Positions 12,751-63,795 of a DNA stretch of 64,000 nt are shown piece by piece (the stretch's first letter is position 1; each line of letters opens with the position of its first letter). The stretch lies in assembly GCA_019456225.1 (NCBI GenBank), contig VRUI01000020.1, positions 1 through 64,000 of the forward strand. Direction: 5' to 3'. Made by a program: the position numbers and the translations under genes. The notes under the pieces are model-generated. The model worked only from the letters and a program-made list of their open reading frames with translations, did not search any database and was not told the origin of the DNA. Source of the DNA: Planctomycetota bacterium (GTDB taxonomy: Bacteria > Planctomycetota > Phycisphaerae > Sedimentisphaerales > Anaerohalosphaeraceae).

Positions 12751-14034
12751 ATGAAGCTCATTATCAATACATTTTATCTGCTTGCTCTTGCCGTTATTAG
12801 CCCGAAGATAGTTTATCGTATGGTTCGCCATGATCGATACCGGGCCGGGTGGGGTGAGCGGCTTGGAAATATTACCAGGTTAACAGACAAGAAATGCATC
12901 TGGATCCATGCCGTTAGCGTCGGAGAGGTCAATGCAACGAGACTGCTCGTGGAAAAACTATCCCGGCTGGACGGCGACTATGAGATCGTCATCAGCGCGA
13001 CAACCGACACGGGATATGCACGGGCAAATGCGATCTACGACGGCAAACTGAAAGTATTCTACTTTCCCTTCGACATCTCATGGATTATGCAAAAAGCATT
13101 CGACAATATCCGGCCGGACATCTGCCTGTCGATAGAACTGGAAGTCTGGCCGAACCTGACGATGATCGCAAACAAAAGAAATATCCCCGTCGTCGTCATC
13201 AACGGCAGACTGAGCGACAGGAGTTTCCCGCGTTACAAACTCATCCGCCCGGTAACTCGCTGGATGTTCTCGAAAGTATCGCTCTTGCTCGCCCAGACCG
13301 AAGAATACGCCCAGCGATTCAGATATCTCGGCTGCCCGGCAGAACGCGTAGTAGTGACCAGTTCGCTTAAATACGACACTGCAGAAATCACAGACGTTAT
13401 CGAAGGTGCTGATGCCCTCGCTGAAAAGATCGCCCTGGAAGACGAACGCCTGTGGGTCGCCGGAGGCACAGGACCGGGAGAAGAAAAGATCGTACTGGAT
13501 GTCTTTACAAAACTTAAAGAACTCAAAGAATTCGCCGACCTTCGGATGGCAGTCGTCCCTCGCAAACCAGAACGGTTCGACGAAGTTGCCAACATGATCG
13601 AAGCGTCTGGTTTCTCATTCGTCAGGTACAGCAAACTCAAAGGAACTGACACCAAAGCACAAAACAAACCGGAAATAATACTTGGCGACACAATGGGAGA
13701 CTTGAAGAAATTCTATTCGCTGGCGTCAATCGTCTTTGTCGGCAGAACTCTCGTACCAATGGGAGGTTCGGACATGATGGAGTCGGCGGCACTGGGGAAA
13801 TGCACGATATTCGGAGAGCACACATTTAACTTCAAACAGAGCGCAAACGCCCTTCTCGCCGGTAACGGAGCCATAAAGGTCAAAGACGGCGATGAGCTAT
13901 TTGAGGCCATAAAAAAATGCCTCACCGACATAAAATATTCGGGAGGCATTTCTAAAAACGGTAGAGAGGTGATCAGCCGCAATCAGGGAGCAACGGAAAA
14001 AACCGTCACGGAAATCGCAAAACTGCTAAGCTGA
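12751..14034 (+). CDS. waaA: 3-deoxy-D-manno-octulosonic acid (Kdo) transferase
   Basis: Membrane-associated GT30 glycosyltransferase that adds Kdo from CMP-Kdo to lipid A precursor, so the organism makes LPS. The N-terminus has a membrane-associated helix (LIINTFYLLALAVISP). The conserved GWGERLG and WIHAVSVGEVNATRLLVEKL follow, then VVINGRLSDRSF, and in the C-terminal Rossmann domain VAGGTGPGEEKIVL and FVGRTLVPMGGSDMMESAALGK. 427 residues is normal. It stands alone on +, just after the IS remnant and convergent with the LuxR/TPR genes; 44 bases separate the two stops. Confidence 0.95.
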   Translation: MKLIINTFYLLALAVISPKIVYRMVRHDRYRAGWGERLGNITRLTDKKCIWIHAVSVGEVNATRLLVEKLSRLDGDYEIVISATTDTGYARANAIYDGKLKVFYFPFDISWIMQKAFDNIRPDICLSIELEVWPNLTMIANKRNIPVVVINGRLSDRSFPRYKLIRPVTRWMFSKVSLLLAQTEEYAQRFRYLGCPAERVVVTSSLKYDTAEITDVIEGADALAEKIALEDERLWVAGGTGPGEEKIVLDVFTKLKELKEFADLRMAVVPRKPERFDEVANMIEASGFSFVRYSKLKGTDTKAQNKPEIILGDTMGDLKKFYSLASIVFVGRTLVPMGGSDMMESAALGKCTIFGEHTFNFKQSANALLAGNGAIKVKDGDELFEAIKKCLTDIKYSGGISKNGREVISRNQGATEKTVTEIAKLLS

Positions 14035-25310: not shown

Positions 25311-26219
25311 ATCTTCTTGCTCTATCTCCTCCGGAGCAGTAGTAAGCTTCTTTAGCAGCCATAATTGGCCTACTGCCATTGCCAGGGCCAGCGGCATCAT
25401 CGCATAGCCGCCGAAGTCGTGGAATAAAGTCTCCCAGCGGTCCCCTTCAAGGTAAGTAAAAGCTATCGAGGTTATCGCAAGGCGAATAGTATTACACAGC
25501 AGTGCAATAGGCAAGCATGTGGCGAAGACTATCGCCTTTTCCCATTTTGGCCGGTTGGCAAGCAAAACTACAAGCCCGATGATCACAAAGAAAGCGGTGA
25601 CCATCCTAAGTCCGTTACAGGCCTCTGCGACAGCTACCGTCGTCTCGCCAAGCCGGATAATATTGCCCTCTCTGACAACGTCATATCCGATCATCTCAAG
25701 CGAAAAGACCGCAGACTCGGTCGACCACCTCTGCAATGGCTGAGTAATACTCGCCTGCACCTGGTTTGGCCAGGGCAGCATAAAGAACAGAAACAGAAGA
25801 ACCGAAAAGACCTTCCAGAATAAACGCCAGCCAAAGACAAGCAAAACCAGCGAAAATATCGTAAGAACAATAGAAAACCTCTCCAGCGAACTCATCATTA
25901 AAAACGTCCCAGCCATCCTGACAAACTGAGCAAACACAAAAGCAGCAATCCCAAACCAAACCGCAGGTCTTATCTCTACATCCTTTAGCCTGTCACGTCT
26001 TGACCAGAGGACATAGACAGCAAGCAGCGGAACCAGGAGACCGGATGAAAACTCATCGCTGGCCATCCACATCGCCCACAGGTCTTTAATATTGGGCCAG
26101 TGTGACCAGAGAAAAACAGCAAGAAGCAAGCAGCAACCAGCTATCAGTTGCCAGTGGCCAGCTATCAGCTGTTTAGCCGAGGTCGGAGTTTGGATTTTAG
26201 ATTTAAAGGGTGTTTTCAA
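25233..26219 (-). CDS. Exosortase (EpsH/Xrt family)
   Basis: Multi-span inner-membrane cysteine transpeptidase-like enzyme that cleaves PEP-CTERM tags; 328 residues. The family's invariant residues are present: Cys201 in AEACNGLRM, Arg246 in NTIRLA and His267 in FHDFGGY. About eight TMs are expected, with SSGLLVPLLAVYVLW at the start of the conserved core. Odd points: the first helix region (about 16-35, AKQLIAGHWQLIAGCCLLLAV) and the last 22 residues (three KQQRASS units) are both encoded by heptad repeat DNA. The start is TTG with AGGT upstream; the next Met is residue 50, inside the core. Likely substrates include the two PEP-CTERM proteins at 3-4.5 kb. Confidence 0.9.
   Translation of the reverse strand: MKTPFKSKIQTPTSAKQLIAGHWQLIAGCCLLLAVFLWSHWPNIKDLWAMWMASDEFSSGLLVPLLAVYVLWSRRDRLKDVEIRPAVWFGIAAFVFAQFVRMAGTFLMMSSLERFSIVLTIFSLVLLVFGWRLFWKVFSVLLFLFFMLPWPNQVQASITQPLQRWSTESAVFSLEMIGYDVVREGNIIRLGETTVAVAEACNGLRMVTAFFVIIGLVVLLANRPKWEKAIVFATCLPIALLCNTIRLAITSIAFTYLEGDRWETLFHDFGGYAMMPLALAMAVGQLWLLKKLTTAPEEIEQEDVVSKQQRASSKQQRASSKQQRASSK
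26121..26177 (-). repeat. Heptad array coding the exosortase N-terminus
   Basis: On +: AGCAAGC, AGCAACC, AGCTATC, AGTTGCC, AGTGGCC, AGCTATC, AGCTGTT in exact 7-base register. It lies wholly inside the exosortase frame and encodes about residues 16-35. Confidence 0.7.
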
Positions 26220-31711: not shown

Positions 31712-32359
31712 TCAAAGATATTTGTCTTTAACGAATATACCTTGATCACGGAGATAAGAAAATATCCTTTCGGAGCATTCCACCGGGGTCATTTGGTGAG
31801 TTTTCAAAGCCAACTCGGCAGAGACCGGCTGTTCATACGGGGCATCAACACCTGTGAAATTTGATATCTCACCCGCCCTGACTTTCTTATAGAGTCCCTT
31901 GGGGTCCCTTTTCTCACATTCACTTAATGGCGTATCAAGGAAAACTTCTATGAATTTAGAATCACCAGAAGCCTCACGAGCCCCCTGACGACCCGAAGCA
32001 TAAGGCGATATGAATGAGCAAATCACTATAAGACCTGCTTGTGCAAATAAAGCTGAAATCTCACCTATACGACGAATGTTTTCGCCCCTGTCTTCAGCCG
32101 AAAAACCAAGATCACGGTTTAAGCCATGGCGAACATTGTCACCATCAAGAACATACGCCAAAGAGCCGTTACGTATCAGCTTTTCTTCAAGAAGAGTGGC
32201 TATTGTACTTTTCCCGGATCCTGACAGGCCAGTTATCCAGATCACACATCCGAGATGTCCTTGCAAAGCTACACGATCATCACGAGTAGTTTTACCATCC
32301 TGAAAAACAATATTTTTACTTGTAATATTATCTGGCAATTTATTACTCCCAAAAAGCAT
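31712..32359 (-). CDS. cysC: Adenylylsulfate (APS) kinase
   Basis: 215 residues. Phosphorylates APS to PAPS. P-loop WITGLSGSGKSTIA (about 40-53), YVLDGDNVRHGLNRDLGFSAEDRGENIRR, the lid-region FISPYASGRQGAREASG, and KVRAGEISNFTGVDAPYEQP are all present. It is a second APS kinase in addition to the C-terminal domain of CysNC 2 kb away and is closer to the family consensus. Its ATG overlaps the stop of cysQ as TAATG, so both are coupled. Confidence 0.96.
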   Translation of the reverse strand: MLFGSNKLPDNITSKNIVFQDGKTTRDDRVALQGHLGCVIWITGLSGSGKSTIATLLEEKLIRNGSLAYVLDGDNVRHGLNRDLGFSAEDRGENIRRIGEISALFAQAGLIVICSFISPYASGRQGAREASGDSKFIEVFLDTPLSECEKRDPKGLYKKVRAGEISNFTGVDAPYEQPVSAELALKTHQMTPVECSERIFSYLRDQGIFVKDKYL

Positions 32360-33135
32360 TATTCAACTGTATCAACAATTTCCTTAATCTTATCGTATGC
32401 CTCGGCACTGGCAGCAATGACTCCATTTACCAGCGTATCCGGCTGATTGAAGACATAAGGCTCACCTGCAAGGTCGGTAACTTTTCCACCAGCTTCAGTT
32501 ACAAGGAGAACACCTGCGGCTATATCCCATTCATTCTTTGGTGTTATACTTAAAGTAGAATCCGACATACCAGCCGCCAAACGTGCCAGCTTATAAGCAA
32601 TAGAGCCGCAGGGGCGAAGATCCAAATGTGATTCATATCCTGAAAAACGCCCCTTTTCAATGTCAGAGCTGCTAACTTCAACCACAGGTGTGCCTTTAAA
32701 TACGTGATTAGATGTTATCGGCTGACCATTAAGGCAGGCCCCTTCATCTAATACAGCATCATACAAGTCATCTGTAGATGGATTATAGATAGCAGAAAGT
32801 ATTACCTGGCCATCTTCGACGAGAGCAACAGAGACAACAAATTCCGGATTACTCAGGACGTACTCTCGTGTGCCGTCGATCGGATCTACAATCCAAACTC
32901 TTTTGCGATTTAGCCGATCCGGCCCCTTTGATTCTTCAGAAAGCCAGCCATAATCATCATGCTCTTGCAACAGCATTTTCTGTAAAATCCTGTCTGCTTC
33001 TAAATCTGCTTCTGTAAGAACTGTACGATCAATTACCTGTTGTTTTCCGATCGTCTTGACGCCAATTTCAATAACTGCTTGCCCTGCCTGGCGAACAGCC
33101 TCTCTGACAACTTCTCTTTCCTTAAGTAAAGACAT
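32359..33135 (-). CDS. cysQ: 3'(2'),5'-bisphosphate nucleotidase (CysQ type)
   Basis: 258 residues of the inositol-monophosphatase fold. The metal-binding motifs are WIVDPIDGTREYV (about 80-92) and NEWDIAAGVLLVTEAGG (about 201-217); the early WLSEES supplies a further Glu. CysQ hydrolyses PAP, the by-product of PAPS-dependent sulfotransfer, and so relieves product inhibition. Its coupling to cysC (1-base overlap) and the sulfotransferase in the locus argue for this substrate over inositol phosphate. Confidence 0.92.
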   Translation of the reverse strand: MSLLKEREVVREAVRQAGQAVIEIGVKTIGKQQVIDRTVLTEADLEADRILQKMLLQEHDDYGWLSEESKGPDRLNRKRVWIVDPIDGTREYVLSNPEFVVSVALVEDGQVILSAIYNPSTDDLYDAVLDEGACLNGQPITSNHVFKGTPVVEVSSSDIEKGRFSGYESHLDLRPCGSIAYKLARLAAGMSDSTLSITPKNEWDIAAGVLLVTEAGGKVTDLAGEPYVFNQPDTLVNGVIAASAEAYDKIKEIVDTVE

Positions 33136-33166
33136 ATTACAGCATTCCTTAACTCAAAAACTCTAA

Positions 33167-34414
33167 CTAAGATATTCTTTTCAACGAATCGTTTTTTACT
33201 AACTGCATGTCGACCGAATTAGCCCATAACATATCATATGCAGCTAACAATTTTGGTTTCTCGTAGTCCCATTCCAGTTCGTTTTCTACTCTGGATCTGC
33301 CGTACTTGCCCATTTCCTCGCGACGTTGGGGATCATCCAGCAATTCAACTATCCTGGTTGCCATGTCCACAAAGTCATTCTTCTTAGCATAAAGAGATGC
33401 TTGCTGTGCGGAAAAACGTCCTTCTGTCAAATCAAACTGAACGACAGGTTTGCCCAGTGCCATATACTCCATAATCTTATTCATAGTCGACTTGTCATTC
33501 ATCTCATTGGCCACGTCGGGATTAACACAAACATCTGCTGTATTTAGCATCTCCAACATTTCCTGATCCGGGACACGGCCTGTAAATGTCACATATTGAT
33601 CTACACCCAGTTCTTTGGCAAGCTCTTTCATTTCTGTCAATTCTGTTCCACCGCCAACCAGACCAAAATGAACATCAGTACGTCCCAAATCATGAACTAT
33701 GTACTTGGCCGCCTTAAGGAGGTAGTCTATTCCTTCCTGCTTGCCCATTACTCCCACGTAACCAACCATATATTTGCATCCCTTTTTGAGAGAATCATCG
33801 GGAGGCATTATTTTGAGGCGTTCAAGATTCGGACCACTTCGAACCACAAAAACTCGCTCAGGGTCCATCTTCCCTCTTTCTATTGCTATTTTCTTATAAG
33901 ACTCGTTTGTCGCGATCGAAACATTCGCGGCTTTGAAAGTCCATCTTTCCCAAGCCATCATAACCTTGTAGAAAAAGTCTTTCTTGCCGAATTTTGCCTC
34001 ATAAAGCTCAGGATTGATGTCATGGTGGTCAAACAAAAACTTCTTACCAAACATCTTAAAAAACAGGCCTATCAGAAATATATTATCCGGCGGGTTACAG
34101 GCATGGATCACATCAAAACCACGGGTTAATAATATCTTCCACGCGAGAACAAACTGCCAGAAAAGCGCAATAGAATATTCCAGAGCATAGCCAATCGCCC
34201 CATCGGCTTCAAATGGTAAGGGGTGCCTGTATATATTAATCCCTTTATAGCACTCGAATTTAGCCTCATAACCTTTTCCCTTGGGGCAGATAACAGAAAC
34301 CTGATAACCAGCTTCTGTAAGCGTCATTGCCTCCTGGAGAACCCTTCTATCAAAAGGTAAAGGAAGGTTTTCAACAATTATAAGAACTTTTCTTTGTTTA
34401 CCAGCAGATGCCAT
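33167..34414 (-). CDS. GT4-family glycosyltransferase
   Basis: 415 residues, GT-B fold, retaining, probably peripheral at the inner membrane. N-terminus VLIIVENLPLPFDRRVLQEAMTLTEAGYQVSVICPKG is typical of a WcaI/WbuB-like group; the C-terminal donor site has MEYMALGKPVVQFDLTEGRFSA. I start it at the ATG at 34414, which has GGAAG 8 bases upstream; a further ATG at 34429 is possible. The start overlaps the 3' end of algD by 17 bases, so the two are translationally coupled. Adds one sugar of the repeat unit; donor and acceptor unknown. Confidence 0.88.
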   Translation of the reverse strand: MASAGKQRKVLIIVENLPLPFDRRVLQEAMTLTEAGYQVSVICPKGKGYEAKFECYKGINIYRHPLPFEADGAIGYALEYSIALFWQFVLAWKILLTRGFDVIHACNPPDNIFLIGLFFKMFGKKFLFDHHDINPELYEAKFGKKDFFYKVMMAWERWTFKAANVSIATNESYKKIAIERGKMDPERVFVVRSGPNLERLKIMPPDDSLKKGCKYMVGYVGVMGKQEGIDYLLKAAKYIVHDLGRTDVHFGLVGGGTELTEMKELAKELGVDQYVTFTGRVPDQEMLEMLNTADVCVNPDVANEMNDKSTMNKIMEYMALGKPVVQFDLTEGRFSAQQASLYAKKNDFVDMATRIVELLDDPQRREEMGKYGRSRVENELEWDYEKPKLLAAYDMLWANSVDMQLVKNDSLKRIS

Positions 34415-35714
34415 CGTATTTCTTCCCATCTGTCTTTTGTTCAGAAACCCTCACAAGGTCAACAACTTTGTGGTGATCCTGCAAACGATCAAAGATGTCC
34501 TTAAATTCACTTGCATTATTTCCAATAACAATTGTTTCGGCATGATCAAGCACTTGATCGACACTTTCAACCATCATGTCTGAAATATGAGGTATATGAT
34601 TGAGTATGTAATCCCTGTTAGATCCTTCTATCTTTGCAATGTTTACATTGCGGTCATATACCCTGATATCATATCCTTTTCCAAGAAGACGCTCTATAAC
34701 TTCAACAAGAGGACTCTCACGAAGATCATCAGTACCAGCCTTGAAACTGAAACCAAGAAAACCAACTTTCTTGCTGCCCTTGGACATAACCATTTTCAAC
34801 CCACGCTCAACCTGCCTTTGGTTACTTGGCAATAACGAGTTCAGGACGGGCAGGTCCAGATCAAGGGTGCGCGCCTTGTAAGTCAAAGCGCGAACATCCT
34901 TTGGCAAACAGGAACCGCCAAACGCAAAACCGGGTTTCATATAATAAGGCGATAGATTCAGCTTTTTATCCTGGCAGAAAATTTCCATTACCTTGTGGCC
35001 GTCAATACTCAACTCCTTGCAAATATTGCCAATTTCATTTGCAAAGCATACCTTCGCCGCATGCCATACATTGTCGGTATATTTAACCATTTCAGCTGTC
35101 TCAATTTCAGTTCTGATCAAAGCCGCTTCGATCCCCTCGTACAAATCAGCAACGACGGCCCCACTCTTGGGATCAGTCTCCCCAATAACTGTTTTAGGGG
35201 GATTATTGAAATCATATACCGCGGTACCCTCTCTAAGGAACTCAGGATTAATGCATACCCCTAAATTAAATCCGGCTCTTTTCTCAGAATATTGTTCCAG
35301 TGTTGGTATAACAACTTGCCGCATTGAACCAGGAAGCATGGTGCTTCGACAGACAACTATGTGATAGCTGTCCTTCTTTTTAAGTGCAGACCCGATCTCT
35401 TCGCAAACTTTTCTGATATATTTCAAGTCGAGATTGCCGTTTAACTGACTCGGAGTCCCAACACATACCAGGCTTATATCAGAATTCTGTATAGCTTCTT
35501 CAGAATCAAGAGTTGCTCTTAGTTTTCCTTCCTTAACAGCTTCTTTTATGATTTCAGGCATATCTTTTTCAATGATCGGAGAATTACCGTCATTGATCAT
35601 ATTGACCTTGGTACTGTTATTATCAACTCCAATTATCTGATGCCCCATCTTCGCAAAACAACCTGCAGAAACTGCACCAACATAACCGAGCCCAAAAATA
35701 CTAATTTTAGCCAT
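34398..35714 (-). CDS. algD: GDP-mannose 6-dehydrogenase (AlgD-like)
   Basis: 438 residues. Oxidises a nucleotide hexose to its uronate with 2 NAD. N-terminal ISIFGLGYVGAVSAGC, central NVWHAAKVCFANEIGNI, catalytic Cys in MKPGFAFGGSCLPKDVRALTY, SFKAGTDDLRESPLVE and the final GICW follow the Pseudomonas AlgD sequence closely (compared from memory) and more closely than UDP-glucose dehydrogenases. It should give GDP-mannuronate, so the polymer may contain mannuronic acid or a derivative. It leads the glycosyltransferase gene, with which it overlaps. ATG start. Confidence 0.88.
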   Translation of the reverse strand: MAKISIFGLGYVGAVSAGCFAKMGHQIIGVDNNSTKVNMINDGNSPIIEKDMPEIIKEAVKEGKLRATLDSEEAIQNSDISLVCVGTPSQLNGNLDLKYIRKVCEEIGSALKKKDSYHIVVCRSTMLPGSMRQVVIPTLEQYSEKRAGFNLGVCINPEFLREGTAVYDFNNPPKTVIGETDPKSGAVVADLYEGIEAALIRTEIETAEMVKYTDNVWHAAKVCFANEIGNICKELSIDGHKVMEIFCQDKKLNLSPYYMKPGFAFGGSCLPKDVRALTYKARTLDLDLPVLNSLLPSNQRQVERGLKMVMSKGSKKVGFLGFSFKAGTDDLRESPLVEVIERLLGKGYDIRVYDRNVNIAKIEGSNRDYILNHIPHISDMMVESVDQVLDHAETIVIGNNASEFKDIFDRLQDHHKVVDLVRVSEQKTDGKKYDGICW

Positions 35715-35797
35715 TACTGCTTATCCTTTCCTAAAACCAGGCCAGATCAAAAAACCTTTGCCCATGTTCGTCAATATCCCTTGCAATTGACATATAT

Positions 35798-37789
35798 TTA
35801 AAGATTGATAGCCGTTTTGATAACACTTCTTCCCGTTATTTTACCGCAACAGGATAACGTATAAATTGAAAACTTTTGATCGTATTTATCGCTGGACCAT
35901 CCGGACAATGTGTCATTGTCACCTAAGATGAGTGTGTCAGTCAACATCCCGTCAACACACAACTCTATGCTTTTATTTCCATTATTGATCTGATAATTTC
36001 TTTCTGATGTCCGGGTGATCGAGCAAGACCGGGAAAAATGAAAATTAAGAGTAACCTCATGGCTGCCGTCACATCGAAAAATATCCTCGACCAAAAGAGA
36101 ACCTTTCTCTTTGCTGAGAGAAAGCGACCTTTCATGGACAACCGGATCATCCAAAGCTTCGTAACCGTCATGCCATCCTGTAACTCTTACAATATCTCCA
36201 TTATCTTCGAAGTTTTTAATAAAAGACCGCGCTTTATGCTTCCATATAAACGGACCGGCAATTTCTGATTGATCCTGACCGTCAATTACAACTGTATTAT
36301 GCGCCGATGTACTTCTAAAATAGTTTCTGAAAGGATCATCAGCAATATAAGTATATGTCCCCGGGTCGATCAGGAACTCTTTACCATAGGCATCAAGAGT
36401 AAAACTAAGGCTGTCGGCATGTCCGTGAGCAGCTATCGACTCAAAACCCAATGGTCCACAGTCGAATATTATTTTAACTTCCTTAGGACCATCACTGCCA
36501 AGTATATAATAGCCACCTTCACTGAAACTATTCGGATTTTGTTTACTGTCAGATAGTTTCTTAATATTATCAAAATCTGCTTTCCCTTTTTTGCCGAGCA
36601 GCCAGAAAGACTTCTCATCAAATACCTTAGCTTTTTCAGCAAAATCTATTCTGTCAAATAGCACTGAAGAAGTTGCAAGAATAGAGTGAGCCTCTTCGTA
36701 TTGCCCCTCAGAGAGGACTATTACTTTGCCATCATCACTATCGCCGATCTGCTTAATACTCAAGTCTTCATTTGTGACTGCACTTATAAATGAAGCACTC
36801 TTTTCGAGCATTTCCCAGTATTCTTTGGGAAAGTCAATTCCATTTGCTCTGCCAAGCAAAGCAGAAATCAGGAAAAATTCAAAACAGAAAATCTGGTAAT
36901 GTACGGCCTGCTCTTTATTTACGCCGTCCGAATAATGCTGATGAATGATCTCGCGGCAAAGAATGTCATAAGCCTTCCTTCTAACCTTACCCATCCCTTC
37001 CATGCCGAAAAAACAAATACTTGCAACAAAAGCACCTGCCGCCTCACCGACAAGATGATTATTCGCTGAAGAGAATGCAGCGTAATTATTCGTAATATGG
37101 TGCAAGTGGCTCTTAATGACCTGCTCGATCAAAGCACACTTCTCGGGCCTGGACCTGAGATAATCCTTTAGAAAAGCGACTATCCATGAAATCGAAATCA
37201 ACCTGATGCCAGATTCCATCGGCATCGTCCAGTTTACTCCAAGGAGATAGGGACACTGCTTTATAAATTCTTCAAGTTGTTTTACAACCTCATCGGCATA
37301 CTCATTTTTGCCGGTCAGATAATAAGCCTTGCTCAAAGTAATAAGATGCTGAAATCTGGGCACCTCCCAGAAGTACTTGAAATCACCAAAAACCTTGGTA
37401 TCTCTGTAATCAAGCCACGGCCCAAACTCAAGCGGAGTTTTTATCTTATTCTTGTATTCATAATTAAAGTCAATATCATCGCCAAGAGAAATCTCACCAA
37501 GGGCAAAAAGCTCAAAACGATGCTCCATAAGCTTATCAGCCGCAGCAACAGAACCGTCAATCCATTGAAGCGGGCAGTCTTCTTTGTTGATATCGGCAAG
37601 GCCGTAAAATGATGTATTGTCGATCATATCTACGATCTGCGTAGACATCGAACAGGACCTGGCAAATGACCTGGCATGAGTCTTATGCAATATACGGTTC
37701 GACATCTGCCACGTAAGCTTTTTAATCCTCCAGGCAATTTCTAAAGGACTCATCGACTTCAATCTGTTGTAATACCAGGCTATCTTCAT
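35798..37789 (-). CDS. Heparinase II/III-family protein
   Basis: 663 residues: an N-terminal alpha/alpha toroid (about 1-340; FGPWLDYRDTKVFGDFKYFWEVPRFQHL, MESGIRLISISWIVAF) and a C-terminal beta-sandwich (GGYYILGSDG, FDCGPLGFESIAAHGHADSLSFTLDAYGKEFLIDPGTYTY, STSAHNTVVIDG). The His and Tyr residues are those used by polysaccharide lyases of this fold. No signal peptide is seen. Proteins of this type are common in EPS loci, where some act as lyases on uronate polymers and others are of unknown role. With algD next door, a uronate-containing polymer is a plausible substrate. Confidence 0.87.
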   Translation of the reverse strand: MKIAWYYNRLKSMSPLEIAWRIKKLTWQMSNRILHKTHARSFARSCSMSTQIVDMIDNTSFYGLADINKEDCPLQWIDGSVAAADKLMEHRFELFALGEISLGDDIDFNYEYKNKIKTPLEFGPWLDYRDTKVFGDFKYFWEVPRFQHLITLSKAYYLTGKNEYADEVVKQLEEFIKQCPYLLGVNWTMPMESGIRLISISWIVAFLKDYLRSRPEKCALIEQVIKSHLHHITNNYAAFSSANNHLVGEAAGAFVASICFFGMEGMGKVRRKAYDILCREIIHQHYSDGVNKEQAVHYQIFCFEFFLISALLGRANGIDFPKEYWEMLEKSASFISAVTNEDLSIKQIGDSDDGKVIVLSEGQYEEAHSILATSSVLFDRIDFAEKAKVFDEKSFWLLGKKGKADFDNIKKLSDSKQNPNSFSEGGYYILGSDGPKEVKIIFDCGPLGFESIAAHGHADSLSFTLDAYGKEFLIDPGTYTYIADDPFRNYFRSTSAHNTVVIDGQDQSEIAGPFIWKHKARSFIKNFEDNGDIVRVTGWHDGYEALDDPVVHERSLSLSKEKGSLLVEDIFRCDGSHEVTLNFHFSRSCSITRTSERNYQINNGNKSIELCVDGMLTDTLILGDNDTLSGWSSDKYDQKFSIYTLSCCGKITGRSVIKTAINL

Positions 37790-54545: not shown

Positions 54546-55409
54546 CTATTCGCTACTTGCTTCCTGCTTGCTGCTACCAGCTGTTTCTTGCTCGTTGCTG
54601 GCTGCTGGTAGCTGGCCACCGGCCAATTGCTCTTCGTCCGGGAAAAAGCTTATTATCAGGTCCGACAGCTCGATCGCTGCTGCTCTAACAGAATTTTCTA
54701 CCACAGAACTTACCTGCACCTGGGCGACATACCTGGCTGTATTGCCATCGATGTTCGGCATGCGGAACCTGAGGCCGACAAACTTATCCTCATCATTGGT
54801 AACCGTGCCGTTTAATACATAGAAATTGATAATAACAACCTCGCTGGAATCTGGAGAGGGCTTGTGGAAACGGTGGATCAGGCAATCGATCTTGCGGCCG
54901 CCAGCAGTAGTGAACTGGCTCTTTTCGGAACTGTCAGAAATCCACCCGGCTGCAGGATAACACGCCTGCGGACGGTGCCCAAGCATCGTACGGGGAGTTG
55001 CGGTATAGGCAACATAAACGCTGGCCCACTGGCCGGTAACCTCATTGACAAAGAGGCGGCTTAGATAGTCGTCGTTGCCGGCAACCTTAAGAACTGACTG
55101 GGAAATCTCAACCTCCCTGCCCTTCCAGCTGCCAACCTGCATTGGAAATTCGCTGAGCGGTTTTTCAAGAACGATGGGAGCCTGGTCAATGCGATCCAGC
55201 CAGGAAGCAACGCAGCGGTAAAGCACCCCCGAAACGACAAGCCCCGCAACAGCCAACACCCACGCCCCCTTTACGCCCAAACGCAAAGAAGACCATCCAC
55301 AGCCCGACTTTGAAGCACCAACACCCACACCCAAACTTTCGTCTCGCTCTTTCAACCTGATCTCCCGGTCAAACCGGCCATTCGGCCGATTTGAAATGTA
55401 TAATGTCAA
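54546..55409 (-). CDS. epsI: Exosortase-associated EpsI-family protein
   Basis: 287 residues from a TTG at 55409; an alternative TTG at 55355 has GGGAG upstream and may be the true start. One N-terminal helix (GAWVLAVAGLVVSGVLYRCVA, about 49-69) then the periplasmic EpsI domain: PLSEFPMQVGSWKG, then the family's hallmark GHRPQACYPAAGW. EpsI-like domains are often fused to or beside exosortases; here the exosortase is 29 kb away. The last 25-30 residues (QLAGGQLPAASNEQETAGSS and on) are heptad-repeat encoded and should be disordered. Confidence 0.85.
   Translation of the reverse strand: MTLYISNRPNGRFDREIRLKERDESLGVGVGASKSGCGWSSLRLGVKGAWVLAVAGLVVSGVLYRCVASWLDRIDQAPIVLEKPLSEFPMQVGSWKGREVEISQSVLKVAGNDDYLSRLFVNEVTGQWASVYVAYTATPRTMLGHRPQACYPAAGWISDSSEKSQFTTAGGRKIDCLIHRFHKPSPDSSEVVIINFYVLNGTVTNDEDKFVGLRFRMPNIDGNTARYVAQVQVSSVVENSVRAAAIELSDLIISFFPDEEQLAGGQLPAASNEQETAGSSKQEASSE
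54549..54635 (-). repeat. Heptad array coding the EpsI C-terminus
   Basis: On +: GCTACTT, GCTTCCT, GCTTGCT, GCTACCA, GCTGTTT and further units (GCTGGCTGCTGGTAGCTGG). It ends at the EpsI TAG stop and lies inside the reading frame. Confidence 0.65.
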
Positions 55410-58131: not shown

Positions 58132-58508
58132 AGAAAAAACAGCTATGAACGAAATACAGCTTTCAGCTACGAGCAGACAGCAATCAGCTAAAAGCTAAAA
58201 AGAGAATTAAGAGTAAGGTGTGAAGTGAAAAGGTTGAAATAATATAACAGCCCCCAGATGACAGCGATGAGCTAAGAGAGTAAGGTGAAAAGAGTAAAAA
58301 CAGTTGCCTGCCTCCGGTTTCCAGTCGCCAGCTACATTGGAATGAATAATGAAAAATCCCGATGTGAAATCTGGACAAGTTTCGAACAAGGAATCGCCTT
58401 TGGCGAGACAGTTATATTTAAAGCTGGACGCTGGCAACTCGTAGCTGATCTCTTTGCTGATTGCTCTTTACTTGTTGCTTAAAATAATCTATGTACAAGG
58501 AAGATACA

Positions 58509-61500
58509 ATGAATCAGAACACAAAAAAAAAGGTGAGAGAGCTTAACACAAACCAACAACGCAATCATCGGCAATTCTATTTCTTATGTCTGCTGATAAT
58601 CAGCCTGCTTACATTTACTGTCATTCCAGCATTCGCAGCAACATATTATGTAGATGCTGCCACCGGCGACGACACCAACCCAGGAACAAGTGCCAATCCA
58701 TGGGAAACGCTTGACAGGACATACACATGGTACAGCGGAGGAGAAACTCCAGTGGTACAGGAAGGTGACACAATCCTCTTCAGAAACGGCAACTACGGTG
58801 ATTTTACAGAAGTAGCAAACAATTCGAGTCAACTTGTTTACCGCACTAGTTTGGTAACTTATAAAGCAGATACAGGACATAGCCCTGCTCTTACTAACAT
58901 AGAAATAGATAACCAAGACAAATGGGGAGGGACTGGCGATGGTGATTCATACTTGCAAATTGAGGGGTTTGATGTCACTGGCGGAGTGGTTATAACTAAC
59001 ACTTCGTACGTAAATATAGTGAATTGCGTTTTAACGAGGGAACCTTTGCCTTACGCCGGAGTGTATGCTCCGTATTTCTCTAACTCTGGTTCTTCCGGCA
59101 TGATTATACGAGATTCATACCATATTACTGTTGAGGGCTGTGATATTCATAATGCTTACAGAGGGATAAACTTAGAGGGTTCTGGTGCCAATATAACTAT
59201 AGAAAGCAATGAAATCTATGATTTAGCAGAAGACGGCATTGAAGCTTCTGGTTATGATAATCAAATCATAGAAGATAACTACATACATAATATTCATAAG
59301 TTCCAAGGGGCTATTGCGTTTACATGCACGGTAACAGGAACATTTACAAATGGAGAAACTGTAATACAGGCAGTAACAGGAGCAGAGGGTATATATAACG
59401 GCGACCAAGCTGGAAGTGCCGATGCCTATATTTTTCAAACCACTGCAACTGAGTTTGAGACGGCAGGAGCGGGAGGAGGCACAATAACCGGACAAAACAG
59501 TGGGGCGACTTTATCGACCATCACGAATGTGGACCCTAGTCATACTGATGCTATACAATTTAACTCTACTACTATAAGTAATGTAATAATTAGAAGAAAT
59601 AGAATAATCCGCGAGGGTCCGGGAGGTTTTCAGGCACTTAAAATCCAGCCTAAAGGTAATATATACGACAATTTTGTATTAGAAAACAATCTTATTTGGG
59701 CACCTAAACCGATTTTGGGCGGCACTGGAACAACAAACATTAAAATCAACAACAATACCTTTTTCAGCCATAAAGCTGGTGAGTCGTGGACGGGCTTCCA
59801 GGATGTTAGTTTTTTTAATGTTACCGAAATGTTCAACAACATTTTTGGCTGTGGTGGCTCTGTTGCCTTTAACGCCGTTATCGAAGGAAACAATATAGTA
59901 GATACGGATGTATCTCCTGAATCGGCGTGGAATAATGTATTTACTGATTGGAGTAATGGTGACTTCTCACTTCCACGAACCTCTACAGCCGTTGGCTTTG
60001 GTAACGCTGCATATGCGCCCGCAACAGACATCCTTGGTGCTTCAAGAGACGCCAACCCCGATGCAGGCGCTTATGAATTTATAGGTATTACTGCAAACGC
60101 AGGCATCGATCAGTTTACTAAAAACACAAACGTTACACTTGACGGTTCGGACTCAGAAAGTTCCGATCCTAATGGTAACCCAATAACCAGGTATCTCTGG
60201 ACATGTGACCCTGCGATAAACGGCGGTGACCCGAACCTGTATGACGGTGCCAACTCCAGTGCGGCCGTCACACTACCCAATGATGCCACTGCTCATACAA
60301 TAACTCTTACCGTTTTTGATGGCGATGGAAACAGCGACTCCGACACAGTTGACATAACGGTATACGATAATAAACTGACTACATCTTCGGATACAGACGG
60401 TTCGGTCACGGAACCACAAGGCGGCGAAGGAGATTATTATTACGGGACTGGTGATATTGTCGACATCGTGGCGGAACCCGTAAGCAGTCTATATGAATTT
60501 GTAGACTGGACCGGGACTGGTGTCGGTGACGTAAATGACACCACCTCCGCAACCGCAACGATCGCGATGAATGCCGACTACACCATTACCGCAAATTTTC
60601 AATTAAAGCCGACGCTTACCATAACATCGGATAGCGGCGGCTCAGTTACAACTCCTGGCGAAGGAGTTTTCCCATACGCCACAGGGACAACCAATATTCC
60701 AATAACTGCAGCACCTGATGCAAACTACCATTTCGACGGCTGGACAGGAACGGCAACGGTAGCAAACGCGGCCCTGGCAACGACAACAATAACCAGCATC
60801 AGCGCCAACGTAACACTGCATGCAAACTTCACAAGGGAGCGAACCGTTACGATCTCGTCAACCGTCAACGGTTCTGTAACGACACCCGGCGAAGGCGCCA
60901 TCACGCGTGACGAAGGTACGGTTCAAGCTATCGCAGTAACCAAAACAGCAACCGGATATTTCATGTTCTGGACCGGAACAGCCGTCGATGCAAGTGCCGT
61001 AGCCGACCCAGCCGCTGCCGGCACAACAGTAACTTTCAGCGGTGACTATACGCTTATCGCAAACTTCGGCCTGGACGCTACAGGACCAACAGTAACCGCT
61101 GTCAGCCCGACAGCCGACTATTTGTATGCACCGACAAACGCCCTGGTAGTCCTGACCGTCGCCGACGCAGGCACAGGAGTCGACCCGGCGACGGTAGAAA
61201 TCGTAGTCAGCACACCAAACGACCCTAACGTAATTGTCTACACAGGCGACACCCCCGAATACACCAGCGCAACCGGCAAATGCCGCCGAGCTGGAACAAG
61301 TGCCGCCTACACATACTACTACCAGCCGGACACCCCCTTCAATGCTGAAGACCTGGTAACAGTCACAGTCGACGCAGACGACCTGCAAACCCCGACAAGC
61401 AACGACACGACAGGGGCGACCTACTCTTTCGAAGTCGCCACCCCAATATTCGGCGTCAACAAGGTAGTAAACTCGGTCGGCACCACAGCCGCAAGCAACG

Positions 61501-63113
61501 TCGACACAGTAACATATCCCGGTGACGGAACTATCATAGCAGTCTGGCAGCAATCCGACAACTCCGGTAATAATGACATTTATTACGGAGAGCTTGTTTC
61601 AGGCGCAGATGCATTCGCCACAAGCATTAATCTGACAAACGATGCCACCCTTGACCAAATAAACCCCGTTGTAGACGCAAATGCAACCGAAATATTCATA
61701 GTATGGCAGCATGATGCACCCGCCGCACTAAACGACATCGTGGTTTATACATCGGCAAACAACTGGGCCACACCGATTGTGATCACCGACCCTGGCAACA
61801 CTACCGATCAGACAAACCCGGCAATGGCAATAGACTCAGCCGGCAAAATTTATGTCACATGGCTCCAGGAAGGCACGATTATCCAGGTTTCAACATCAAC
61901 TAACTCAGGAGCAACCTGGGCAGCGGCGGTCAATGTAGTGACTGGTCTTTCTTCGGCGCAAACACAACCTGCCATAGCAATAGACGACAATGACACAGCT
62001 TACATAGTATGGGCTGATCCCAACGGATTTATCATCGGCGCAACATCAGCCGACTGGAGCGATCCAAATACTATCGACAACTCGGGCAACCTGGCAAACC
62101 CTGTAATCGCAACAGAAAGTACAGGCACAGTACTGCATATTCTCTGGGATGACGGAGCCGAGGTATACCACTGCGAAACTACAGACGGCCTGACGGCACC
62201 ATATACAACAACAGATATTACGGGTGCATCCGGCGCCCAGACCAATCCGACTATTGCAGTAAGCGTGACAAATGTATATGCCGCATGGAAAGATGCCGAA
62301 AGCGGGAACACGGACATCTTCTACGCTGAAAAAACCGGCTCATCATTCGGATCAAACATCTCGATAAACGACGACGCCGGAACAGACGCCCAGTTAGAGC
62401 CCTTTATAAACATCGACACAAACGGCAAACCCTACATCGCCTGGTCGGACAACAGAACATCCAGCCAGAGCATCTACTTTGCGGCAGCGACATTCATCGG
62501 CTCATCGCTGAAATCGTCAACAGTAGACTCAAGTGCAGGTGGAAACACAATTGTCGAGATCGACAGCACCACAGCCGGTGTAATAGACGATGTCAACGAT
62601 ATCGTTGTCACGATCCCGCCAGGCGAACTGCCCGCAGATACGACCATTACGATCGCGCAGCTGTATAACCCGCCGGCCCCGCCGACAAACTCCTTTGGCC
62701 TCTTCTACGAATTCGGACCAAGCGGACTGACATTCACCGATGAAGATGGAAAAAGAGCAACAATTACGATTCCGCATGACCCGGCCGATGAAGACTCGGA
62801 TTTTGATACATGGACAATTTACTGGTACGACCTGTTTGACGAAGAATGGAAAACCACCGGCATAACCAACATCACCCATAATGTTATTTCAGCGAGCCTG
62901 CACACGATCACATTCGAGACCACCCACTTCACCGGATTCGGTGTTGGCGGAGGGGTAGCACCGCCACCTGGTAGTGGTGGTGGTGGCGGTGGCGGCTGCT
63001 CTGTTTCGCCGTATGGCGGAGGCTCCATACCCGAATTCCTGCTGCCGTATGCTGTAATAGGCATAGTGCTAGCCGGACTAAAGCTAAAGAACAGACGCAA
63101 AAAAAGTGTATAA
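58509..63113 (+). CDS. Large surface protein with beta-helix, PKD, InlB repeats and Cys-containing C-terminal tag
   Basis: 1534 residues from the ATG at 58509 (AAGGAAG just upstream; an ATG at 58491 lacks one). Long basic n-region, then signal FYFLCLLIISLLTFTVIPAFA. Next: right-handed beta-helix (about 45-520, ending GASRDANPDAGAYEF); PKD-like domain (525-620); three divergent InlB B-repeats (about 621, 699, 777; for example YHFDGWTGTATV); Ig-like (856-975); a sialidase-like beta-propeller (980-1330); ZU5-like domain (1335-1480). It ends in a Gly-run, Cys1497 (GGGGCSVSPYGG), a helix (FLLPYAVIGIVLAGL) and KLKNRRKKSV. This tripartite end is not a PEP-CTERM and resembles Cys-bearing sorting tags cut by CPBP-type proteases, one of which is encoded next, overlapping by 8 bases. 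Confidence 0.85.
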   Translation: MNQNTKKKVRELNTNQQRNHRQFYFLCLLIISLLTFTVIPAFAATYYVDAATGDDTNPGTSANPWETLDRTYTWYSGGETPVVQEGDTILFRNGNYGDFTEVANNSSQLVYRTSLVTYKADTGHSPALTNIEIDNQDKWGGTGDGDSYLQIEGFDVTGGVVITNTSYVNIVNCVLTREPLPYAGVYAPYFSNSGSSGMIIRDSYHITVEGCDIHNAYRGINLEGSGANITIESNEIYDLAEDGIEASGYDNQIIEDNYIHNIHKFQGAIAFTCTVTGTFTNGETVIQAVTGAEGIYNGDQAGSADAYIFQTTATEFETAGAGGGTITGQNSGATLSTITNVDPSHTDAIQFNSTTISNVIIRRNRIIREGPGGFQALKIQPKGNIYDNFVLENNLIWAPKPILGGTGTTNIKINNNTFFSHKAGESWTGFQDVSFFNVTEMFNNIFGCGGSVAFNAVIEGNNIVDTDVSPESAWNNVFTDWSNGDFSLPRTSTAVGFGNAAYAPATDILGASRDANPDAGAYEFIGITANAGIDQFTKNTNVTLDGSDSESSDPNGNPITRYLWTCDPAINGGDPNLYDGANSSAAVTLPNDATAHTITLTVFDGDGNSDSDTVDITVYDNKLTTSSDTDGSVTEPQGGEGDYYYGTGDIVDIVAEPVSSLYEFVDWTGTGVGDVNDTTSATATIAMNADYTITANFQLKPTLTITSDSGGSVTTPGEGVFPYATGTTNIPITAAPDANYHFDGWTGTATVANAALATTTITSISANVTLHANFTRERTVTISSTVNGSVTTPGEGAITRDEGTVQAIAVTKTATGYFMFWTGTAVDASAVADPAAAGTTVTFSGDYTLIANFGLDATGPTVTAVSPTADYLYAPTNALVVLTVADAGTGVDPATVEIVVSTPNDPNVIVYTGDTPEYTSATGKCRRAGTSAAYTYYYQPDTPFNAEDLVTVTVDADDLQTPTSNDTTGATYSFEVATPIFGVNKVVNSVGTTAASNVDTVTYPGDGTIIAVWQQSDNSGNNDIYYGELVSGADAFATSINLTNDATLDQINPVVDANATEIFIVWQHDAPAALNDIVVYTSANNWATPIVITDPGNTTDQTNPAMAIDSAGKIYVTWLQEGTIIQVSTSTNSGATWAAAVNVVTGLSSAQTQPAIAIDDNDTAYIVWADPNGFIIGATSADWSDPNTIDNSGNLANPVIATESTGTVLHILWDDGAEVYHCETTDGLTAPYTTTDITGASGAQTNPTIAVSVTNVYAAWKDAESGNTDIFYAEKTGSSFGSNISINDDAGTDAQLEPFINIDTNGKPYIAWSDNRTSSQSIYFAAATFIGSSLKSSTVDSSAGGNTIVEIDSTTAGVIDDVNDIVVTIPPGELPADTTITIAQLYNPPAPPTNSFGLFYEFGPSGLTFTDEDGKRATITIPHDPADEDSDFDTWTIYWYDLFDEEWKTTGITNITHNVISASLHTITFETTHFTGFGVGGGVAPPPGSGGGGGGGCSVSPYGGGSIPEFLLPYAVIGIVLAGLKLKNRRKKSV

Positions 63114-63795
63114 GATAACAGCCGGAAAACGAATTTACGCAGAGACCGCAGTCAGTTTGATCGTTGTAATAACAGCGATCAAACTGACGCGGATCATCCC
63201 TTTCCTTTCAACCAAATGGTACCTAACCCCGGCTATCCTGCTAACCGCGGCACTTATACCGACACTCATAAAAAAACAAAATCCCATCAAAACCCTCCTG
63301 CCGCTCAAGAACATCTGGCTTTCGGTTTCGCTTTTGTCAGTAACATGCATTATCGTCTTTCCCTTGCTGTATATCGCCCTGCTGCTGCTAAAACACTGGC
63401 CGATAATCGAACCGTTTTTTCCGATCCCCTGGCCACGCGGCCAAGTCCCCAACTGGATAATATACAATTTTCTCTACATAGCCGTATTCGAAGAATTATT
63501 TTTCCGGGCATACATCCAATCCAACATCCAAAGAGCCCTCGACCCGCAATTGGCGGCAAACCCAGACCGGCCAAAGAAACTTAATCGACACCACTGGACA
63601 GCCATTACAGTGTCGTCAGCAGCCTTTACAGCAGCACACATGATAATCCACGCCGACCCTATGGCAATACTGGTTTTCCTGCCGGCCATGATATTCGGCT
63701 GGCTATACGCAAAAACAAATTCTATAATAGCCCCGATCCTCTTCCACGGAATCTCAAATACAGCATATTGCCTGATAGTATATTTCATGGGATAG
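63106..63795 (+). CDS. CPBP-family glutamic intramembrane protease
   Basis: 229 residues, six to eight TM helices. The three CPBP (Abi/CAAX-like) motifs are intact: Glu129-Glu130 with Arg134 in FEELFFRAYI, His178 in FTAAHM, and His214/Asn218 in LFHGISN. The start is a GTG overlapping the last codons of the surface-protein gene, so translation is coupled. Such one-to-one pairing of a CPBP protease with a protein bearing a Gly-Cys/TM/basic C-terminus recalls MYXO-CTERM/myxosortase pairs. Inference: it processes the neighbour's tag in the inner membrane. Confidence 0.88.
   Translation: MYKITAGKRIYAETAVSLIVVITAIKLTRIIPFLSTKWYLTPAILLTAALIPTLIKKQNPIKTLLPLKNIWLSVSLLSVTCIIVFPLLYIALLLLKHWPIIEPFFPIPWPRGQVPNWIIYNFLYIAVFEELFFRAYIQSNIQRALDPQLAANPDRPKKLNRHHWTAITVSSAAFTAAHMIIHADPMAILVFLPAMIFGWLYAKTNSIIAPILFHGISNTAYCLIVYFMG

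Follow-up and report, generated by a model that had tools for sequence, protein, structure and literature searches.

The window examined here, a stretch of 64,000 nucleotides from a planctomycete of the family Anaerohalosphaeraceae (Phycisphaerae, Sedimentisphaerales), encodes a large predicted surface protein with a C-terminal cysteine tag and, directly adjoining it, a CPBP glutamic intramembrane protease. Judged by sequence, this pair is a real, conserved and uncatalogued subtype of the Cys-CTERM/myxosortase kind. The two genes very probably form a dedicated surface-sorting module, in which the protease would trim the tail of the tagged protein and leave its ectodomain lipid-anchored. If this is true, the myxosortase/Cys-CTERM principle extends, in the form of a compact unit of two genes, to one order of the Planctomycetota; the unit can be tested in Escherichia coli, as MrtX was, and NCBIfam would gain a missing tag model and a missing protease model.

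The tagged protein and the adjacent protease

The predicted surface protein, the substrate of the proposed module, comprises 1540 residues and is encoded on the forward strand (58491..63113), as defined by its open reading frame and profile matches. It consists, in order, of a signal peptide, a right-handed β-helix, a PKD domain, InlB-type repeats, a repeat region, a ZU5-like domain and the Cys tag. The probable Sec signal peptide (58491..58637, +) was read by eye, with the presumed cleavage point between IISLLTFTVIPAFA and ATYY, while the β-helix (PF13229, residues 165-281; 58983..59333, +) scored 37.7 bits with a cut-off of 25.9. Homologues of the protein also carry Ig and cadherin-like domains. 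The combination of β-helix, PKD and InlB-type repeats would suit an adhesin of the cell surface or a protein that binds polymers.

The protein ends in GSGGGGGGGCSVSPYGGGSIPEFLLPYAVIGIVLAGLKLKNRRKKSV, and its tag (62970..63110, +), delimited from the sequence and from tag alignments, has the layout G7-C-SVSPYGGGSIPEF-hydrophobic helix-KNRRKKSV, in which the glycine run and cysteine are followed by a transmembrane helix and a basic end. The hydrophobic segment (FLLPYAVIGIVLAGLKL; 63036..63086, +) was helical in the AlphaFold2 model (residues 208-234 of the modelled fragment). The cysteine (codon TGC, 62997..62999, +) and one proline are invariant in two tag alignments, of 16 and 30 tags. The tag thus displays the general hallmarks of a Cys-type C-terminal sorting signal: an invariant cysteine, a transmembrane helix, a basic end and a C-terminal position.

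The protease gene (63106..63795, +) starts with GTG and encodes 229 residues; its assignment as a myxosortase-like CPBP protease draws on the open reading frame, the PF02517 match and the structural model. Its start overlaps the end of the substrate gene by exactly 8 bp (GTGTATAA), and no strong ribosome-binding site precedes it in the sequence. On re-reading of the open reading frames, the coordinates and sequences given for both genes in the original prediction proved correct throughout. The protein is a member of the CPBP/Rce1-like family by its PF02517 score (65.9 bits versus a cut-off of 22.4), and its catalytic motifs, previously described as intact, are complete and invariant across 35 orthologues: EELFFR (EExxFR; 63490..63507, +; Glu129, Glu130, Phe132, Phe133 and Arg134, in the numbering of the window protease), FTAAH (FxxxH; 63625..63639, +; Phe174 and His178) and HGISN (HxxxN; 63745..63759, +; His214 and Asn218). 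The AlphaFold2 model of the protease (pLDDT 90.5) contains about seven long helices, and its best match in the PDB is the archaeal MmRce1 (PDB entry 4cad; E 0.024, probability 1.00, TM 0.53). The window protease lies on a long branch and departs from some near-invariant residues (FFRAY for FFRGY, Asn for Gln121) with its catalytic residues intact.

The genome encodes six CPBP proteins, among which the window protease stands apart by its match to the myxosortase core model Mrt_core (87.6 bits versus at most 35.4 for the others). A second CPBP protein, in a frame of 235 residues (C115, L004), was considered and set aside, as it does not resemble the Mrt proteins and its frame showed no neighbouring tag.

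Conservation and co-occurrence of the pair

Orthologues of the protease are found in relatives of the same order, the main ones with 30-41% identity, and immediately upstream of the relatives' protease lies, on the same strand, a gene for a large tagged protein. The tag is encoded next door upstream for 30 of about 38 Phycisphaerae proteases with upstream sequence (at one locus, L099, across a gap of ~1.2 kb). By their record titles these loci belong to the Phycisphaerae within the Planctomycetota, several being titled Sedimentisphaerales.

Among 98 relatives, 19 genomes hold both tag and protease, three the protease only, two the tag only and 74 neither; across 397 Phycisphaerae genomes the corresponding numbers are 24, 3, 3 and 367, a further feature shared with Cys-type sorting signals, which co-occur with a cognate protease. 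The association at class level is strong (Fisher p 4e-32, uncorrected for kinship), the tag model behind these counts having been built from protease neighbours and related genomes not being independent observations. The class-level count leaves out three weak protease matches (G098, G217 and G242; E ~1e-16, 59-66 bits), which were taken to be other CPBP proteins. The six mismatching genomes are mostly incomplete MAGs: the protease alone was found in G074 (as fragments), G376 and G410, and the tag alone in G095 (where the tag gene runs off the contig edge), G365 and G394. Occurrence of the tag without a CPBP protease in relatives, named in the original prediction as evidence against coupling, is therefore limited to three of the 27 tag-bearing genomes, all of them fragmented MAGs. 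Tag and protease are a conserved pair and not chance neighbours.

It could nevertheless be argued that the C-terminal helix does no more than anchor the protein in the membrane and that the CPBP protein has another target, in an immunity-type or housekeeping function, the two genes being linked by operon history only. CPBP proteins have many roles, and five others are encoded in this genome. Against such a reading stand the linkage and co-occurrence across divergent genomes and the specific similarity of the protease to Mrt_core; moreover, a plain anchor would not need an invariant cysteine. We consider this explanation distinctly improbable, and the sorting module remains the preferred reading.

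The distribution of the pair is patchy: in the window's own family it occurs in only two of 39 genomes, each of which holds both parts. In a sample of 392 genomes from the phylum, matches were found in only two besides the window's own, both weak, which indicates a tag that hardly extends beyond this order. A match in G012 (E 0.002) was dismissed as chance, being located 59 residues from the end of its frame. The genome search for further tagged proteins proposed in the original prediction returned a single tag copy, a second, leucyl-tRNA-synthetase-like match being due to chance. The description of the protease as private to its substrate consequently holds in this genome and fails in about ten of the 27 tag-bearing genomes, which encode two or three tagged proteins, the extra tags mostly on contigs other than that of the protease; one protease can thus serve several targets in trans.

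The protease-only genome G074 contains three fragmentary protease copies (L026, L031 and L033), the first adjoined by an integrase/transposase-like frame, and no tag was found in it. These fragments look like the remains of a decayed system.

Relation to catalogued families

The tag alone matched no NCBIfam model above threshold. With the JDVT-CTERM model (NF033191, cut-off 27 bits), the window tag, taken as a 40-residue segment, scored 9.9 bits, and weak matches were obtained for seven of 16 tags, the best at 18.5 bits and none at the cut-off. No match to the MYXO-CTERM or Synerg-CTERM models was listed up to E 10, a range in which most matches of very low score are removed by the filters of HMMER. 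The earlier impression that the tag does not correspond to the named Cys-tags is in agreement with these comparisons, and a literature search turned up no publication that deals with the tag in Planctomycetota.

The protease behaves similarly. All 18 orthologues scanned match Mrt_core (NF040914; best E 7.7e-27), and the window protease does so with 86.4 bits (E 1.2e-24), below the cut-off of 100. It also falls short of the cut-offs, given in parentheses, for MrtP at 90.3 bits (250), MrtC at 79.1 (195), MrtX at 47.6 (180), MrtS at 54.2 (130) and MrtJ (NF033192) at 61.7 (75). Two Phycisphaerae members scanned with Mrt_core scored 80.4 and 86.4 bits, and nearly all of the myxobacterial-type proteases scanned 111-141 bits, with a Nitrospirae protein (L111) at 83.9. 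In the phylogenetic tree the Phycisphaerae proteases are split from the Myxococcota-type myxosortases with support of 100/100, a value obtained with eleven long or stray rows left out and L111 not used, and of 88 in a fuller quick tree. The latter was a first tree, in which the other CPBP proteins of the genome served as the outgroup; it suffered from long-branch trouble and was replaced. By a crude rule, no Cys tag was found beside myxobacterial or other non-Planctomycetota proteases. One protease titled as from an uncultured planctomycete (L128) is of the myxobacterial type and nested among Kofleriaceae, a placement that is due to transfer or to a binning error.

The closest known arrangement is that of MrtJ and JDVT-CTERM, a two-gene pair described from beta- and gammaproteobacteria (PMC11980579), which likewise combines one CPBP protease with one target tagged by poly-Gly-Cys, a helix and a basic tail. 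The pair in the window might accordingly be an ordinary JDVT-CTERM/MrtJ pair that has slipped below the thresholds through divergence, as its identical two-gene layout, the weak JDVT-CTERM matches and the MrtJ score would allow. Both cut-offs are missed, however, none of the tags reaching that of JDVT-CTERM, and MrtP and MrtC (90 and 79 bits) outscore MrtJ (62 bits) on the protease, albeit with models that are longer. Furthermore, the planctomycete pair was found here in Planctomycetota only, often has extra tags in trans and carries a ZU5-like domain before the tag. An ordinary JDVT-CTERM/MrtJ pair is thus an unlikely explanation.

The systems built on MrtX, MrtC or MrtP and MYXO-CTERM share with the planctomycete pair the CPBP core, the invariant cysteine and a tripartite tag, but serve dozens of targets, as opposed to one to three here, and their proteases form a separate clade; their tag model finds no match here. 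MrtS and Synerg-CTERM likewise combine a CPBP protease with a Cys tag, and differ in the low MrtS score and the lack of a Synerg-CTERM match. Scores below all NCBIfam cut-offs, together with the separate clade, characterize the pair as a myxosortase/Cys-CTERM-like but uncatalogued subtype. The co-occurrence and the sub-threshold tag scores thereby support the original proposal of a coupled tag/CPBP pair distinct from the named Cys-tags.

A protein from another class of the phylum (L173, genome G431) ends in GGGGCSYSKNSGNEGSAEW-helix-RRK, without a ZU5-type HF[ST] motif, and possibly represents another type of Cys tag.

Proposed sorting mechanism

MrtX cleaves MYXO-CTERM in a cysteine-dependent manner and is sufficient for this in E. 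coli, and Lgt-like acylation and type II secretion of MYXO-CTERM proteins have been proposed (PMC11980579). From homology to this system we infer cleavage, lipidation and surface location for the planctomycete pair. Sec would export the large protein, whose C-terminal helix would keep it in the inner membrane with the cysteine facing the periplasm. The cysteine would then probably be acylated, Lgt being the candidate enzyme, and the adjacent myxosortase-like protease would cut C-terminal to it, freeing the helix and basic tail. Finally, the lipid-anchored ectodomain would be moved to the outer surface, probably via type II secretion. The genome holds both Lgt and GspD. Direct observations that favour the sorting module are the anatomy of the tag, the intact protease, the conservation, the gene linkage and the co-occurrence; the sub-cut-off scores, the six mismatching genomes and the long branch of the window protease count against it.

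A ZU5/GAIN-like domain before the tag

The original reading of the pair was sound, but it had missed a ZU5/GAIN-like domain with an HF-T/S site directly before the tag (62487..62963, +; profile and fold matches). A profile of the pre-tag region matches ankyrin ZU5 chains, and 25 of 30 orthologues match PF00791 (ZU5), placing the region in the ZU5 superfamily by both profile and fold; the region of the window protein alone gave no Pfam match. The closest folds to the domain model are ankyrin ZU5 (PDB entry 3ud1, Z 11.8), GAIN domains of adhesion GPCRs (Z 9.6) and the FIIND of NLRP1 (Z 7.6). A His-Phe-Thr sequence (62925..62933, +), assigned by alignment and by the AlphaFold2 model to the loop that separates the domain's last two strands, is a candidate self-cleavage site. 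Serine or threonine occupies this site in all 30 aligned orthologues, and H[FYL][ST] is present at the end of the ZU5-like domain, shortly before the tag, in 46 of 49 distinct tagged proteins, including those with tags unlinked to a protease. Variants of the site are RFS in L048 and L107, and HYT in L072.

In PIDD, self-cleavage takes place at HF/S following the ZU5 domains (PMC3210808), and the ZU5 domains of bacterial surface proteins have been proposed to be autopeptidases (PMC3482391). The domain before the tag shares with the autoproteolytic ZU5, GAIN and FIIND domains its fold and the HF-S/T at the domain end, ahead of a membrane-proximal segment; it differs from them in being bacterial, extracytoplasmic and coupled to a sorting tag. 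We put forward self-cleavage at HF-T/S as a hypothesis. As almost all members join a sorting tag to a domain of the ZU5/GAIN-like type, self-cleavage of bacterial ZU5 domains becomes directly testable.

Were such cleavage to occur between Phe and Thr, display would proceed in two steps, and the protease and lipid tag would anchor only a short C-terminal strand, so that the ectodomain of ~1480 residues would be held non-covalently and could be shed. This tentative extension adds a step to the sorting module and does not replace it. The conservation of the site, its position between the last two strands, the nature of the best-matching folds and the precedents of PIDD and the bacterial ZU5 domains all speak for it. 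A shared fold is, however, no proof of activity; the closest one, that of ankyrin ZU5, does not figure among the self-cleaving proteins compared, HF[ST] could be retained for strand packing alone, and the three variant loci deviate from it. In a fuller and slightly more doubtful form of this idea, the protease would, after self-cleavage, turn a strand-Gly-Cys peptide of ~23 residues into a lipid anchor, the adhesin being held non-covalently and released by force or unfolding, as in adhesion GPCRs.

A parallel sorting system and neighbouring genes

The Cys-tag/CPBP pair resides in a genome that also contains three exosortases and 11 PEP-CTERM matches, and the cell thus carries two C-terminal sorting systems, as originally predicted. 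The exosortase reported in the window is present (EpsH family; 25353..26120, -; PF09721, 190.7 bits), and an EpsI-like protein is encoded at 54546..55406. PEP-CTERM proteins had also been placed in the window, but by the model used none of the 11 matches lies on its contig. Like the Cys-tag pair, the exosortase/PEP-CTERM system relies on a C-terminal sorting tag; its enzyme and tag are nevertheless unrelated to those of the CPBP/Cys-tag system, alongside which it runs in parallel.

In the exosortase/polysaccharide region (31712-37789), an adenylyl-sulfate kinase (31712-32356) is found near a weakly matching heparin-sulfate-lyase-like protein (35798-37786), which suggests a sulfated exopolysaccharide. 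A Kdo transferase homologue (12751-14034) agrees with an outer membrane that contains lipid A.
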